Assembly: GCA_026419775.2 (NCBI GenBank)
Contig: JAOPGA020000876.1
Location: 1-48,498, forward strand
Reading direction: 5' to 3'
Origin: Acrasis kona
Taxonomy: Eukaryota > Heterolobosea > Eutetramitea > Acrasida > Acrasidae
DNA length: 48,498 nucleotides
Below the pieces are notes generated by a model that was given only the letters and a program-made list of their open reading frames with translations, had not been told where the DNA came from and made no database searches. Shown one piece after another: positions 5,632-16,657 of the stretch (position 1 is its first letter; each line of letters starts with the position of its first letter). A program made the position numbers and the translations under genes.

Positions 5632-7815
5632 TTAATAGTATACCCCCATAGGTCGAGTTTGAAGTGATGCACCTCTCCAAACATACTGATCCCTATCTGG
5701 ACTCGACACAACTTTAACAACTCCCTTCATTTCATCCGGCACGATGCTCGCCACCTCCTTATGCAGACGATCTGCAAATCCAAACAACATTGATCCTCCC
5801 CCTGACGTCACCACGTTACTCACCAGTAGTGGCCATTCATCTTCGGGCATTTTCTACAAAGTCAGTCAGTACATCAAAACTAAATTCTCACCTCCAGACA
5901 AGAACGTATCGCTGTAGGAATATCTATTCTTTCGTGCAATTTATTTTCTTTTAATTTTAAGAGTCCAGAATTAAACATCCACTCTGGACCCCTTATACAA
6001 TCGATAGGTCTTATTCTAAAATCTTGGTCATCTAGTCTAAGTTCATGAGGATCCATGTGTTTGTACTTTTCAGCTTGTTGCTTATAATCAAAAGCTACTC
6101 TAAACAATTGTTGCAACAACTTTGTTTGAGTGGATAGTTTTTTACAATGTAATTCATCTGCAAAATAAGAAGGACCTATACTGCTCGTTATCCTAGATCT
6201 TGACATAATTTCGCCATTCATGACGGCCACAATGGTGGTCAAGTAGCCGCCAACATGAACAAAGAGTCCGGTTTCAATTTTTGAACCTTGAATGGCCATG
6301 TCCACTTTATTAACAAGAATATGCTGTGAATCATCAAAGGAATATGCACGAAAAAAGTAAGGGTCTTTGGTAAATTCACCAATTACTAAACCTGTTTCTA
6401 CACGATACCCATTTAGTTGTTGCTCCATTACTTCAATACAATTTGGAGACACCATGATGGATTTGAAGGGATCGGTAACACGTTTGATTGGTTTATTGTT
6501 CATATAATGATGAGCATCTTCGCCCAATACGAAACTCTCACAATGTGAACCTGCGTGCCCTACAAAGGGTGTAGATTTGAACACACTACTACGGGTATAT
6601 CTAGGATTTAAGTAACCATTTAGGTCGTAACAAATCTTGTTGTTTCCAATAACAAATATGGGAAATCTTCTTCTATTTTCATCACTATAGAGAGAACGAA
6701 ACAAGTGATAGCCGTTGGTGATGCCATCCAGCGGAAAAGAATGTTGTAGACAAAATGCATCCCAAACACTAGATTCTAGTGCAAAGTAATTCCATCTTCT
6801 ACAAACAAGAGAACAAGGGTTGACCACGGTCAAAAAATCCAAAAATCCAAAAATATTTAATAAAATTTCGTTTGGAAGCATTTCAATGTGATTTTCATCA
6901 AGATCTGGTATGGATTGACTGTGGTTGACTTGAATGTTCAATGCTTGCAAATATACTCTTGTCGAATTGACCAAATCACCACTATTCTCTAGGCGGTCTG
7001 AATTTGAGTAGAGAACGGAGGTTAAATGTAGCGGCTGAGAGATTTGGTAGGGTAGGATGCTACCGCTCTTTGAAACTCTTCTAAACATGATTTCGCATCG
7101 AATAATGTACTTTGTTCCTTTCGTAATTTTTAATCCTTCGTGAAGTACGTCATGATTGAATATTAACACTCCGCCCTTGGTTGGGACTATAGGATGGGGG
7201 TAAGACAATTCAAGTTCACCTGAATACGGCAGCACACCATCGGTTGGTCTATTGTAAAAAACAGTGTTACCACCTTCGTAATTGTCATTCAAGTAAATGA
7301 TCATTGTGAAGATGCTTCGCTCATCGTCGCTCTTCACGAAGCAATTATCCATGTGTGGCGAGAATTTCTCACCGGGATTGTACCGGGTGAATTTGATAAC
7401 TTCGTTGATGCCCGTTGGTACCCAAATACCCTCAGTGGCAACTCCAAAAGGTTTAACTGAACTGTGTTGAAAGTCGAAAGTGTTGGATAAGTGCTTTTGG
7501 AATGTTTTCTTGTATAGTTCCTCAGCCAGCGCGAAACTCCTAACAAGCACTCTATCATTGTTACGGTACTCCTAAAAACGAGGTTAAAGTCTTTTCTAAA
7601 GTAACTTTTACTTGTGGGTATTCTTTTTCGAGCGACTCGTAACCTAGTTCCTCAGTGCTTTTGATATAGTAATCACACTCGTCTGCTTTCAAAACATTTT
7701 TGAAGTGATAACATCTCGCTGATTTGAATTTCACCTTTTCCACGTCCTGCTTATTGTTTTCATGATGCTCAGATAGCCATGGACTCAAATAGTGGAAAGT
7801 GTACGTTGCTGGCAT
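5632..7815 (-). CDS. Fusion of prolyl-4-hydroxylase-like dioxygenase, F-box and actin-like domains
   Basis: Three exons (7815-7612, 7571-5892, 5853-5632) joined by introns of 40 and 38 nt, both in phase 0, give 701 residues. Residues about 30-235 form a 2-oxoglutarate/Fe(II) dioxygenase of the P4H class. The iron ligands H141 and D143 (FSPHMDN) and H212 (VLHEG) are present, and K222 lies ten residues later, where P4H enzymes bind 2-oxoglutarate. Residues about 299-342 are an F-box (MLPNEILLNIFGFLD...CSLVCRRWNYFA), the Skp1-binding module. Residues about 365-701 are actin-related, ending with a clear match to actin's SGG...GFADR and the P/R-D-R-Y-x-VWRGAS region. Actin's first phosphate loop is degenerate, so ATP binding is doubtful. 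The exon joins restore EYRNNDRV and the actin C-terminus, which supports splicing. The start is the first in-frame ATG. An oxygen-dependent ubiquitin-ligase adaptor or Skp1 modifier is inferred. Confidence 0.85.
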
Positions 7816-7977
7816 GGTGGTTTGTAGTAGTTTTCGCGGTTTGTTGTAGTTTTTGATGGAACTACTTCGAACTTCGATTTCGAAAATGAACAAGATTTTG
7901 GTATTGTTACAACTTCACCACCTATCAAAACTAACAATTGTAAAATAAGATGAAAATAGTTTTATTTGATCCACTAG

Positions 7978-8006
7978 TGTGATTGATTTAGAGGAGAACA
8001 AGATAT
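7978..8006 (+). repeat. 29-bp junction repeat, left copy
   Basis: The sequence beginning TGTGATTGATTTAGAGGAGA is the reverse complement of 8580-8608. It encodes the transposase residues where the gene was broken, so the breakpoint target was duplicated at both ends of the inverted segment. Confidence 0.9.
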
Positions 8007-8335
8007 ACAAAAGTCTTAAAAGGGACGAATGGATTGCTGCTGACCTTGGATACAGAGGCCTCCAAAATGACTATCGTAGAGTTGCATTCCCATATCCAGA
8101 TAACGAAGACAAAGTGAAGCTTGATGATAAACAAATACAATTTAATAAGGAATTCAAGCGAATCAGAACTGTTGTGGAGAACGTCATCTGCTATATTAAA
8201 ATGTGGAAGGTTTGCAAATATACGTACAGAGCATTTAATGTTGACTTGGACAAGGCGCAGGAGGAGCACCATAGGGTGTGGGTTGTCGCTGCTGGGCTTG
8301 TTAATAAATTCATCATGCCATGCAGGCAAATCTAG
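7979..8335 (+). pseudogene. Transposase, detached C-terminal half
   Basis: Starting in the 29-bp duplicated block (encoding VIDLEENKI), this frame continues with DEWIAADLGYRGL and ends with KRIRTVVENVICYIKMWKV. It is the C-terminal part of a DDE_Tnp_4/HARBI1-like nuclease and holds the third catalytic acid (Glu of VVENVI). It lies on the opposite strand from its N-terminal half at 8582-9135, so no intact enzyme is made. The first in-frame initiator is an artefact of the break. Confidence 0.85.
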
Positions 8336-8550
8336 GGAATAAATGTTATTTTGATGTTTTCAACATATTATCAGAATCCAATATTTTTGTGTCCTCGGCT
8401 TTCTCGGCACTCTCAACAATTTCCGCAGTTCTCCGCAGTTTTCGAGAAATCCCCAAGGTTTTTTGGTTGCCTTGAAGAATTTTTGAGTTTACTAAAAGTT
8501 TCAAGAGATTTTCTTTGATTTCTGACGTTTTTGATGACGATTTGACATCA
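8336..8550. other. Transposon 3' untranslated and subterminal region
   Basis: Between the detached transposase stop and the terminal repeat lies non-coding sequence with CCGCAGTTCTCCGCAGTTTT. Similar GCGGAAAAC motifs occur in opposite orientation near the other terminus (10240-10300). They are plausible subterminal transposase-binding motifs. Confidence 0.5.
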
Positions 8551-8580
8551 AAAACAGCAAACACGAAACACCTCCACTAA
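8551..8580 (-). repeat. Transposon terminal repeat, displaced copy
   Basis: Read on the minus strand it starts TTAGTGGAGGTGTTTCGTGT and matches 10314-10343 in 28 of 30 bases. Its outer end abuts transposase coding sequence directly at 8580/8581, as expected if this end attacked an internal target. Confidence 0.85.
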
Positions 8581-8608
8581 TATCTTGTTCTCCTCTAAAT
8601 CAATCACA
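8580..8608 (-). repeat. 29-bp junction repeat, right copy
   Basis: Reverse complement of 7978-8006. It is followed at once by the displaced terminal repeat, with one base shared. Confidence 0.9.
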
Positions 8609-9135
8609 TTCTTATCATTTAGAGATCCATTGTATGATGGACTAACATAATAGATAAAGCCTGTTGGGGAGCATACTATCATTTTTGTAAATGTATGCCT
8701 TGCCTTCTTTCCGGAATAGAGCAGCTTATCAAGAATACGTCTTAACGGCCTCATTACATACTGCTCCGTACCATCTAGTACAATAGTAATCAGAGCTTTT
8801 CTTAAAACTGCTGCGTTGCCTTTTCTTGTTTTGTAATCTGGAAGGTATATTTTAGGATTGAAATACTTGAATAATACATTGAGTGTTGCTTGGTTATACT
8901 TGTGGATTGTAGATTTAGAGAGACCACTCATCCATGCAATCAAATCTAGAATTATATACTGTCGCATCCACAACAGGAAAATAAGAAGTTGATCACTTTC
9001 AGAGAGTTCACGCTTCTGCTTCCCAGTTTGTTTGATCTTGGTCTCGCCAGTTTCAATGCTAGTTGCTTTTAGTTCCTCTTGTACTTCCTTCAAAAGTTCA
9101 TTAAATTGACCTGTGGTTAGCCCAACAAGTGACAT
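8582..9135 (-). pseudogene. Transposase, N-terminal half (DDE_Tnp_4/HARBI1-like)
   Basis: From the ATG at 9135 the frame encodes about 184 genuine transposase residues, then about 10 residues of read-through into the terminal repeat before a stop at 8548. The first part has a helix-turn-helix-like region (LSESDQLLIFLLWMRQY...LSKSTIHKYN). The nuclease core then shows the first catalytic Asp in LDGTEQYV and the second acidic position in YNGSLNDKNVID. The third catalytic Glu lies in the inverted half (7979-8335). The family performs cut-and-paste transposition of IS5-like/PIF-Harbinger elements. Confidence 0.85.
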
Positions 9136-9222
9136 AAAAAGAGCGGCTCTGACAAAAAGATTCCAAATTAAATCATGAACTAAATTTGTGAGATTAAAAA
9201 AAATGTATTTTGAACGACAATC

Positions 9223-12574: not shown

Positions 12575-13780
12575 TTATTCTTCCTCCACTTGGTTGTAGT
12601 CTTGCTCCTCTTCGTCTTGGTCATATTGATCATCTTGATAATTATCTTGATGTTGCTCTGTGATGTTTTCAGACTGGGATGGCTGTATTTGCTGGTTAGC
12701 TTTAATGTTGTCATAGATGGCCGTTGATCTTTTCAATTTCTTATCCAACTTTTTTCCTTCGCCACGTTCCATCTCCCACAAGCTCTGGTTGAGCTGCATC
12801 AATTTGTTCCACTAGTCTCTTCGTCATCAACTTCATCTTTGACCCTTTGCTTTCGGATTTTGTCAGTCGTGCTTTCTATCACCTCATCCACAAGTGCCAG
12901 ACTACTCCTTGATACTGGGATGTTGTGGCGAACAAGCATGGCACCAAACTGTGCGTACAGTACTTTCATTTGAATCTTGATGGCTCCTCTAGATACAAAG
13001 TAAGGGTCTTTCAACTCCTCAATGGTTTTGGCAACATCTTCAGCGATTTTCGTCTTGACCACCCCTTCATCAACTTTTGGCTCTGTCATCTTATCTTTCA
13101 TATCGCTTGCTCCAACTCCACACAGACGCTCCAACTCAATTAATCGAAGCTTAATTTGGGTAACCTTTCTTGTGTTGTGTGGCCTTCTTTGGATTTTTCT
13201 TTGTGTTTGTGTTCGTTGTCATGTTTGTTGTATGTACCATTCTCATCGTGCCTCCTCTGCTCCTCATGTTGCACAATTCCAAAGTCCTTGTTGAATGTTT
13301 TGTTGCTCTGGAACTTCTGCACTGGCTGCTTTCCAGCAATGATCTTGTTAAGGGTGTCGCCTTCACATTTCCTTTCTCTTTTTTGCGGGCTCTAAAGTTG
13401 ACTGTGGTGGGGATTGAAGAGAAGTTGAAGACTGGGTGACAAGTGGTGTTGGTTGAATGACTTGAGTAGTTGGAGCGGTAAGTGGAGTAGCCGTAATACG
13501 GATCACTTGAGGAACAGGAGGTGCTGATGTCTAGATTAATTGAGTAAAAAAGTCTTTAAAGTGAATTGCATTACATTGTTTGTAGTTTGTTGATGTGAAG
13601 GATCCTGAATTTAAAGTGTTCATACCGGAGGTTGTTGTGTGTTTAGCTGTAACGTCATCCTGCTTATTCCTGGTATTTGTATTCCATTCGCTCTTTCCTT
13701 GAACGATTGTGCAAGATTGTCTCTGTTCTGTGTATTGGTGTTCTTGTTTGGAGTTTTGGGACCTAGTGCGTCCTTAACTT
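12575..13780 (-). pseudogene. Gln/Pro-rich and acidic-tailed gene, interrupted by frameshifts
   Basis: Coding-like segments follow each other on the minus strand in changing frames. They are a Gln/Asn-rich stretch (about 13775-13626), a Pro/Thr-rich stretch (13530-13386), a basic segment encoding DTLNKIIAGKQPVQKFQ and a His/Lys/Glu-rich run (13385-13150), a helical block encoding ELERLCGVGASDMKDKM...IKIQMKVLYAQFGAMLVRHN (13155-12799), and a final Gln/Asp/Glu-rich tail to the stop at 12575. The frame changes near the A6 run at 13385 (one base too many), near 13155, and near 12800. Composition suggests a nuclear regulator, but I recognise no domain. It is either a decaying gene or a good gene with several base-calling errors. 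Confidence 0.5.
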
Positions 13781-13841
13781 CAAGATAAAAATACACTGGT
13801 CAACTTCAATAGCACCTGTCAACGCTCAGGCATACGATCAC

Positions 13842-16657
13842 ATGAAGATAATAAGAGCTACTGCTAAAGACACTGAATATGCATACAAGGGTAAAATTTA
13901 TAAACAATATATAAAAGAATATAAAATAGACACTTTGAATGTAAAGTGTGTAAACCCTACTAGTCCACCAAATAATCTAAATTTGTTATCAAAAAAAGAA
14001 AAATACAGCGTCCCTACAGATACTAAGAATGTTTCGATAACCAGTAACGAAGATAACAGAGCAGCAGAGTCGTTCTGGAGGCTTATACAATCTAACAAAT
14101 CCGTCATGGATAACGAAAGAGATAATGAAAGGCAACAGTCCAAGCAAAAAGCTACTCAAAAACGAAAAAGATCTATTTATATGTCAGATTCCGAGAGCGA
14201 AACCGATCCAGTTGAATCAAGAGCGAAAAGAGGTAGACCACCGAAGGGAAAAGTACAGATTTCAGATAGAAATATAAAGTATCCATTACAAGTTAGCTCA
14301 TTTATGACGCTACTTGATCCTGGACGAATAGAACATAAAAGACCAGGATTTTGCAACAAGAGATACATTTACCCTATTGGATATAAATGTAGCAGAATCT
14401 ATACTTCCTACATTAATCCAGAAACTAAAACTCCATACACTTGTCAAATATTTGATTCTAAAGATGGTCCATTATTCAGAGTGACTGCTGAAGATGATCC
14501 AACGAACCATCATGAGGCCAACAATCCCACAAAATGCTGGTTGAGCGTTATAAAGAAAGCTAAAAAAAACAGACCTTCATTATCTGTCTCAGGTCCAGAA
14601 TACTTTGGATTGACCAATGAAGTCGTCAACAGCATCATTAGCAGTCTAGAAGGAGCTGATAAATGTATAACTTTTCAATCTGAAAGAGACAACCTAAATA
14701 CCTCTCCATCACAACCAGTCAAAAAGTCCATAGATCAACTTGCGGACAAATTTGAAACCAAAGACAAGAAGGTTGGTCACACTTTGCGTCCATACCCACT
14801 AACATTTGATAGTTGGCAGAGTTAAGAAGAATGTGGGAATTACCAATTGTATATCACTCCATCAGCACATTACGTCCATCGATGAGATTACCAACATTTA
14901 GTTGCGAAGATTTTGAGTCAGCTCTCATCAATCCACAACAACATTCACAGCTATTGATGGAGTTACATTCCAAACTCTTCAACAATCAACATTTAAATTC
15001 ATTAGAATCAATCACCGACAAGTACAACGTCACCCTAGAATCCAGTGCAGATCCAGACGTTGCCTACCAACATTACACATTCCAAGAGCGATTGGTAATG
15101 ATGCACAAATTAATCGAACATCTCATCAGGTGTCAAGAACATTCATCCGTCCAAAAATCAAAATTAAATTCGCTTCTAGTTCCATCCAAACCGTTCGCCA
15201 CGGACATGAACGGAAACGAATTGTATCACTTTGGTCATGATTTAGCTAACAGATTGTTTTACATATCACCTAGCAATTTGAACTGGAGGACATTAGCAAC
15301 GACCGCCGATCAAATTCAACAAGCATGCGATGTTCTGTACCCATCAGATCCAGTCAAGATTTGCATTTTGAAAATCATCAATCATCATCATCATTCGAAA
15401 ATTCAATCCCATCCATCTTCACCCCATTCAACAAACAAATTCGCACCGAAACGTTCCAAACCATTTCGCTATCAAGTGCCTCATCGCACATGTATCCAAT
15501 GCAGCATCCAAGAATCACATTACAATCACGATCACAATTTATTGACGTGCGGTCAATGTAAAACCAGCTATCACGTAAAATGTCACGATCCACCTCTCGC
15601 CTCCATTCCGATACGTTATCGCTATTTCGTATGGACGTGCGAGCATTGTAAATTTTGTGAATCTTGTAAAGTAGATCAACACGGCGATCAAATGTTGATT
15701 TGTGACGAATGTGACCGAGCATTTCATACGTATTGTTTGAATCCTCCATTATTGGAAATACCCACCGGAAGTTGGAAATGTAACGATTGTAACGAGCGCC
15801 AGGTTGGTCAACCCGATAACGATTATCAAAAAATACCAACATGTGAAGACTGCGTCTTTTTTGAAGAGGATCATGATGACGACGAGATTAATTTGGTGAA
15901 TCCAAATGATGAGTTCGTGGAAATTGAGTCGACCACGTTGATGAAGGAACTGAGCACCGCACAGAGAATGAGAGATGATTTGATTCATGAGGAGGGATTC
16001 GTGAGCGGTCGAGTGAGCGAGAATGCATTGTGCTTGGATGATGAATTTTCGCATTGTGAGGAACAAGTAACGAGGGCACTGCTCAGGAAGAGATTATCAA
16101 ACATTACGCACATTAGGAGCATCGTGCATCACGTCACTAACCTCGAGTGCATACATGCATTGAGAACGAATCACGAGGATTGCGAAATGGTCATTGATGA
16201 ATTATTGAGCGGGAATCATGCATGCATGCATCGACTACGAAAAAAGATTGCCAACGGAAACCATGATGATGATGATCCTTTCCATGATGAAGACGACGAC
16301 GACGATGATGATTTGATCGTTTCCGAAGAGAGCGACACCGATTACCATGCTCCTCGATCGACTGGTGGTGATGTCAAGTACAACAAGCACCAATCCTTGA
16401 GAATGTATCGAAATCCGCTATCTGGCTTCTGCGATCCAATCACGCAAGAGGAACTGATCGATCCCTACATTTCAAAGTATGGACACGTGCTGAGTTATTC
16501 GACATGGAAGAAGGTTTTGTTAGAAAAGGCGGTCAAGGACCACTGTCCGTTCACCAAGAAGCCGTTGGGACTGGACGATTTGAAGAGACTCACGATGGAG
16601 AACATTCACGAATATCAACAAGAGTTAAATCAATACCCATTGGACACTGTCAAATAA
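13842..16657 (+). CDS. AT-hook, FYRN-FYRC, DDT-like, double PHD and U-box-like chromatin protein
   Basis: Two exons (13842-14771 and 14813-16657) flank a 41-nt intron ending CTAACATTTGATAG. The product is 924 residues. Residues 129-137 form an AT-hook (KRGRPPKGK). Residues 170-214 match FYRN (YIYPIGYKCSRIYTSY) and 222-279 match FYRC (CWLSVI...EYFGLTNEVVNSIISSL), a pair found in MLL/trithorax and related proteins. Residues about 330-375 resemble a DDT domain (FSCEDFESAL...LLMELHSKLF). Residues about 532-640 are two linked PHD fingers (CIQC...CGQCKTSYHVKC, then CDECDRAFHTYCLNPPL...WKCNDC) as in DPF-type histone readers. Acidic runs follow. Residues about 845-910 look like a U-box (FCDPITQEELIDPY...CPFTKKPLGLDDL), suggesting E3 activity. 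A nuclear histone reader and ubiquitin ligase is inferred. It ends 5 bp before the convergent helicase gene. Confidence 0.8.

Follow-up and report, generated by a model that had tools for sequence, protein, structure and literature searches.

Prolyl 4-hydroxylase (P4H), F-box and actin-like domains are joined in a single predicted protein of Acrasis kona, a Heterolobosea amoeba described as forming fruiting bodies by aggregation. The gene lies within a stretch of 48,498 nucleotides from contig JAOPGA020000876.1, hereafter called the window, where it occupies positions 5632-7815 of the minus strand and encodes 701 amino acids in three exons. Relatives with the same order of domains occur at other A. 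kona loci and beyond this species, and no described counterpart was found. The reading that we consider most likely, although with somewhat less than even confidence, is that the protein is a subunit of a Skp1-cullin-F-box (SCF) ubiquitin ligase in which the oxygenase hydroxylates, in cis, a client held by the actin-like domain.

Three domains encoded by one gene

The gene was noticed in an original prediction made from the letters of the window alone, whose coordinates, strand, two introns and protein length all check on the spliced protein (Table 1). Its splice junctions are matched by two NCBI proteins of A. kona, the first by P0002, which derives from a second copy of the gene (C643), and the second by P0001. 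A single uninterrupted frame of 563 amino acids (5883-7571) runs through the P4H core and the F-box and covers most of the actin part, and the fusion therefore stands regardless of the introns or of any guess at splicing. As judged from sequence, the public models of this gene and of its paralogue on C835 look wrong. The NCBI model of the window gene begins at Met142, so that half of the hydroxylase is missing, and is named ‘actin’. The C835 protein (L040 665-2860) is named ‘prolyl 4-hydroxylase’ and ends at the TAG of a putative intron, which resembles an intron acceptor. Public records that name the fusion genes for just one of their parts are thus corrected by the present analysis.

All three domains exceed the curated Pfam cut-offs in the window protein (27 bits for 2OG-FeII_Oxy_3, 24.3 for F-box-like and 27 for Actin), so that the fusion originally read from the sequence is also found by domain search. 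The hydroxylase has the double-stranded beta-helix fold of P4H-like oxygenases that use 2-oxoglutarate (2OG) and Fe(II). The HxD...H metal triad and the basic 2OG residue about 10 positions past the distal His, which characterize family VIII oxygenases, are both present, and the active site predicted earlier (H141, D143, H212 and K222) is complete. Across the aligned fusion proteins, the His-Lys pair of the H212/K222 type is found in 11 of 11 rows; HxD is present in 10 of these, and the remaining row is an NCBI model that begins downstream of that His. Five Pfam matches were listed for the window protein up to an E value of 1, and no JmjC family is among them. The linker that follows the P4H core yielded a weak TPR_2 match in the relative P0011 (E 0.042). 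A single-sequence search with the window protein matched actins in the PDB at 5e-10, and a profile of the actin part placed conventional actins at 1e-16, at the top of the best 60 of 143 matches. The F-box precedes the actin domain, which is the order seen in the plant protein ARP8/SUSA2.

Table 1. Features of the fusion gene in the window
Feature	Position	Strand	Description
Exon 1	7612..7815	-	ATG at 7815; residues 1-68, N-terminal part of the hydroxylase; junction as in NCBI protein P0002
Intron 1	7572..7611	-	40 nt, GT-AG, phase 0
Exon 2	5892..7571	-	Residues 69-628: hydroxylase core, linker, F-box and most of the actin-like domain; one open frame
Intron 2	5854..5891	-	38 nt, GT-AG, phase 0; spliced form in NCBI protein P0001
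Exon 3	5632..5853	-	Residues 629-701, then the stop codon; completes the actin-like domain
2OG-FeII_Oxy_3 (P4H-type) core	7101..7394	-	Residues 128-225; Pfam 1e-13, 52.5 bits
Catalytic residues	H141/D143 7347-7355; H212 7140-7142; K222 7110-7112	-	Read from the spliced protein
Conserved linker	6906..7070	-	Residues 236-290; two predicted helices, perhaps TPR-like
F-box	6744..6884	-	Residues 298-344; F-box-like 1.4e-12, 47.6 bits; F-box 7e-7
Actin-like domain	5656..6653, including intron 2	-	About residues 375-694 (N-terminal limit set by alignment); Pfam Actin 1.6e-17, 63.6 bits, best stretch 590-692

A family of fusion proteins

Searches of the A. kona genome (37.35 Mb in 1021 contigs) revealed further copies. 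The C643 copy is 99.8% identical to window positions 6278-7976 (1699 bases, 3 mismatches) and is cut by the contig end. Its fetched flank outside the matched part has no match in the window, and the copy is either an allele or a duplicate of the window gene. C835 encodes 712 amino acids and all three domains if a putative intron of 48 nt is spliced out. C746 has a putative 39-nt intron at the position of window intron 1, and its NCBI protein, P0003, contains all three domains, yet its P4H exon carries a TAA. Degraded remnants of the fusion gene are present on C727 and C334.

Protein searches, in one of which the best 8000 candidates were scored, returned 16 proteins in total. Six of them hold all three domains above the Pfam cut-offs (P0003, P0005, P0006, P0011, P0012 and, by its precomputed Pfam entries, P0001), and the A. 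kona proteins P0002 and P0004 end before or inside the actin part. P0013, a EukProt entry from Physarum polycephalum that is named as a transcript, matches P4H at 1e-12 and Actin at 9e-36, with an F-box-like score of 21.8 bits that falls below the cut-off. Three others (P0007, P0014 and P0015) exceed the cut-off for P4H alone and give a weak F-box signal or none; the actin-like segments of P0007 and P0014 are visible by alignment only. P0008, P0009, P0010 and P0016 are P4H proteins whose Pfam lists contain neither F-box nor actin. In P0008 and P0010, the P4H is followed by WD40 repeats, which represents another joining of a P4H to a possible recognition module. A further A. kona locus, C384 (L070 1564-3673), appears to combine a weak, sub-threshold F-box (E 0.04) with WD40-type repeats and a P4H of the Lys type; its frame changes within a run of A, perhaps through a sequencing error. 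If this arrangement is genuine, a P4H and an F-box came together on a second occasion.

The order P4H-F-box-actin is common to the A. kona loci, four environmental proteins and, with its sub-threshold F-box, the Physarum transcript, and for this reason we view the arrangement as inherited rather than as a chance joining. A. kona is a heterolobosean, and Physarum, a distant slime mould, is an amoebozoan. The order that they share with the environmental sequences argues for a eukaryotic family that has inherited a P4H-(helical linker)-F-box-actin architecture. Trees were built from 18 P4H rows and 20 actin rows and have long branches; their A. kona actin-type rows are 10 of 42 matches, unlabelled, some of them partial owing to introns. 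The P4H tree unites the fusion domains in one group with support of 63/60, adjoined by the non-fusion protein P0009. A core group is recovered at 97/96 for six P4H rows and 97/100 for seven actin rows.

Relatives of the entire family were sought in viruses and prokaryotes with two peptide patterns, which gave 60 viral-contig and 66 GTDB-genome stretches; none of these was confirmed by tblastn at the sensitivity used. A phage collection contained one match to P0011, at 31% identity over 27% of that protein and confined to the P4H region. When the F-box-actin alignment was used as a protein query, it returned four fusion-family proteins and no conventional actins, a result that has no bearing on plant ARP8.

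Divergence of the actin-like domain

Motifs of the actin part were counted on one MAFFT alignment. The first phosphate loop reads VIGNNKICYD in the window protein versus VVDNGSGMCKAG in A. kona actin, and the two phosphate loops together (IFVIGNNKICYD and LFVHVGGYLTTIV) depart from the nucleotide-binding loops of actins. The degeneracy of the first loop claimed originally holds for the window protein, which has lost the loop's Asp, as have C835, P0005, P0006 and P0012. However, it does not describe the family as a whole, given that four of nine scorable fusion rows retain this residue (P0011, Physarum, P0014 and P0007). None of ten fusion rows has an intact second loop (DSGDG), and nine of ten retain the GG of the adenosine motif. 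Past a W.GA-type motif, the tail comprises 9-25 residues in seven core rows versus 32 in A. kona actin, as counted on the printed sequence; that of Physarum extends for 43 residues past a different motif. Because the tail is short and the nucleotide loops are lost, polymerization and standard cleft binding look unlikely.

The P4H core is the best conserved part, with 47-60% identity between the window protein and six relatives, against 29-50% over the first 105 residues and 31-59% over the linker. The corresponding values are 22-39% for the F-box and 13-33% for the actin parts, except for 47% to C835 at the actin C-part. This pattern fits a constrained enzyme combined with a fast-changing recognition module, and decay of the actin part would fit it too.

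Structure models were made for the relatives P0005 and P0011, standing in for the window protein. The P0005 model, built with 7 sequences, has a mean predicted local distance difference test (pLDDT) score of 50 and is usable mainly in its P4H part; Foldseek matched it to actins at 4e-9 and to P4Hs at 8e-9. The P0011 model was built with 12 sequences and has a mean pLDDT of 65, for a protein that is 30-42% identical to four aligned A. kona proteins. Here the three domains expected from the original prediction fare differently. The P4H is well modelled (blocks at pLDDT 73-96, one at 59) and the F-box fairly so (ten-residue blocks at 63-83), whereas the actin part is recovered only in pieces. Two linker helices, 241-258 and 262-279, are modelled at pLDDT 72-85. 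Foldseek with this model found 2OG oxygenases at best 3e-8 and actins at best 3e-7.

A possible cis-coupled ubiquitin ligase subunit

The reading that we favour starts from what is observed: the exon-intron structure of the gene, its three domains, the conserved catalytic residues and a domain order shared with relatives. By docking on Skp1, the F-box would give the protein the role of substrate receptor in an SCF ubiquitin ligase. With its nucleotide loops and part of its C-terminus lost, the actin-like domain might then hold a client protein, as proposed for ARP8/SUSA2. The Lys-type P4H-like enzyme would hydroxylate the held client, most likely on Pro and possibly on Lys, in a manner dependent on O2, 2OG and iron. 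With hydroxylase and E3 receptor in cis, oxidation and ubiquitination would be coupled in one chain, and the fate of the client would depend on the availability of O2, 2OG and iron. Docking, client and coupling are modelled on ARP8/SUSA2, on JcdI of Dictyostelium, on KDM2 and on an engineered F-box-VHL/PHD3 switch. A bolder version, possible but doubtful in our estimation, is that a heterolobosean and an amoebozoan share a single-chain machine for O2-dependent degradation. The enzyme would hydroxylate a client on a repurposed actin fold and the F-box would deliver it to SCF, a logic like that of the hypoxia-inducible factor (HIF) prolyl hydroxylase domain (PHD) enzymes and VHL, achieved with unrelated parts.

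Several observations weigh against the favoured reading. F-box scores stay below the cut-off in Physarum, P0014 (E 0.048) and P0015 (E 0.014), and no F-box was found in P0007, so that docking on SCF may not hold throughout the family. The actin tree splits the fusion rows into two groups on long branches, and a single origin of the fusion is plausible but weakly supported. Only pieces of the P0011 actin part are confidently modelled, with residues 391-482 and 518-584 under pLDDT 50, and the fast divergence of this part could be decay. Finally, the F-box of JcdI is reported to be dispensable for the overexpression effect and may lower the enzyme's own level (PMC9485057).

This last precedent supports the strongest alternative, in which the oxygenase acts on free substrates, the F-box sets the stability of its own chain via SCF and the actin-like domain localizes or scaffolds the protein. 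Such an arrangement, which we rate as possible though rather unlikely, is also favoured by the P4H core being much better conserved than the F-box. However, the F-box-actin order is fixed in A. kona and the environmental relatives. ARP8 has this order too, and its actin domain is regarded as a receptor.

A cytoskeletal enzyme is a less probable explanation, and we consider it unlikely. The actin-like domain would bind actin or actin-binding proteins and bring the hydroxylase to cytoskeletal substrates, with the F-box secondary. The leading position of conventional actins among the PDB matches of the actin part, by profile and by single sequence, is in its favour, but the shortened tail and lost nucleotide loops are not. 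In addition, the reported activity of PHD enzymes on actin is presented as disputed (PMC6739866).

Skp1 as a candidate substrate

The original prediction singled out Skp1 as a target, which would make the protein a Skp1 hydroxylase in cis, modifying a proline of the Skp1 docked on its own F-box. The Skp1 residue that PhyA modifies in Dictyostelium is Pro143, and replacing Glu147 by Pro turns human Skp1 into a substrate; the same paper reports that DdPhyA binds 2OG through Arg276 (PMC7864055). Canonical A. kona Skp1, encoded on C849, ends in NDFTPEEEAKIRDENRWCEEA and reads NDFTPEEE versus NDFTEEEE of human Skp1. From this alignment it follows that its Pro, within TPEE, is the equivalent of the modifiable residue. 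A second Skp1-like gene (C145) reads TEEE. By fold, PhyA appears alongside other P4Hs among the matches of the P0011 model (Foldseek 6t8m, E 8e-7, rank 17), and this match keeps the Skp1 proposal alive. VIA lists were occupied by the P4H domain and are silent on the F-box and actin parts; PhyA is not among the 50 matches listed there, which excludes nothing.

Three findings nevertheless lower the standing of Skp1 as the specific target, leaving it quite improbable. The 2OG residue of the window P4H is Lys222, not the Arg of PhyA-type enzymes. Its profile matched algal P4H at 2e-6 and Bacillus P4H at 1e-5 in the PDB, and PhyA (6t8m) is not among the 12 matches up to an E value of 1, which include a PHD-like Pseudomonas protein (4iw3) at 0.13. 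Moreover, A. kona has a separate PhyA-like gene on C124, whose best PDB match is 6t8m at 4e-20, and this is the likelier Skp1 enzyme. In a 13-sequence comparison with this profile, which covered 12 non-fusion A. kona P4H frames, seven Lys-type frames scored at or below 1.3e-20 and C124 only 0.044.

Matches to PF11397, a family which we take to include Skp1 GlcNAc-transferases, occur on eight A. kona contigs. Loci L001 853-1803 and L051 1024-1656 carry genes of the PhyA-like hydroxylase and Skp1 pathway. Given the PhyA-like gene, the Pro-bearing Skp1 and the PF11397 genes, a PhyA-Skp1 pathway may run in A. kona without the fusion protein, which weakens the case for Skp1 as target of the fusion, and these sequences suggest that a Skp1 hydroxylation and glycosylation pathway may exist in Heterolobosea.

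The poorest candidate, and a very improbable one, is a chance or decaying lineage-specific fusion without selected joint function: the degraded copies on C727 and C334 and the TAA of C746 would fit it, but the order recurs in A. kona, environmental proteins and (with weak F-box) Physarum, and the His-Lys pair is kept in every fusion row.

Neighbouring features

A frame at window positions 8551-9222 of the minus strand matches DDE_Tnp_4 at 4e-9. Close to the end of this frame lie 23 bases that are found again, in inverted orientation, at 7983-8005, an arrangement that looks like two fragments of a single transposon placed head to head within 7970-9222. The homology with C643 ends at window position 7976, beside this transposon junction. 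At 13767-16654, adjacent frames with FYRN/FYRC matches (1e-20 and 7.5e-18) and two PHD-finger stretches (5.5e-16) suggest that a chromatin protein is encoded.

Comparison with known systems

As originally stated, no protein with the order P4H-F-box-actin appears to have been described, and we found none in open-licence literature. By term counts, the main text of the A. kona genome paper does not mention F-box, hydroxylase, actin or Skp1 (PMC11589745).

Precedents exist for pairs of these parts. KDM2 carries an F-box and is a JmjC histone demethylase that is not known to have P4H or actin domains. Human KDM2A/FBXL11 and KDM2B/FBXL10 are tabulated as JmjC dioxygenases with F-box-protein names in a paper whose domain figure legend includes an F-box (PMC4147966). 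In the protist Dictyostelium, JcdI/Fbxo13 and JcdH each combine an F-box with a nonheme dioxygenase, and JcdI is reported to depend on O2 and to use its F-box to bind Skp1; however, the oxygenase is of the JmjC (JmjD6-related) type, the F-box is near the N-terminus and the available account describes no actin domain (PMC9485057). Plant ARP8/SUSA2, compared here by domain order, has an F-box at its N-terminus and a divergent actin domain behind it and associates with ASK1, and its authors predict target recognition by the actin domain. In contrast to the fusion family, it has no hydroxylase and is described as restricted to the plant lineage (PMC7562919).

Among single-domain comparisons, algal CrP4H (2jig, 3gze), Bacillus anthracis P4H (3itq) and PBCV-1 vCPH (5c5t) use Lys for 2OG but differ in having no F-box or actin. 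PhyA is likewise not known to carry a fused F-box or actin. The PhyA enzymes of Dictyostelium and Toxoplasma share the PHD/P4H fold and a tie to SCF biology, but differ from the fusion in using Arg276 for 2OG rather than Lys and in lying outside its P4H profile up to an E value of 1 (PMC7864055). Precedents are thus pairwise and made of different parts (KDM2 and JcdI on one side, plant ARP8 on the other), none was found for all three, and the family is apparently undescribed.

Oxygen sensing by a dioxygenase and a ubiquitin ligase usually needs separate proteins, such as PHD and VHL or PhyA and Skp1. If the favoured reading is true, the coupling of hydroxylation to ubiquitination within one chain could be tested directly in A. 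kona and in Physarum, a slime mould, and the family would also provide a case outside plants in which a repurposed actin fold serves as a ligase receptor.
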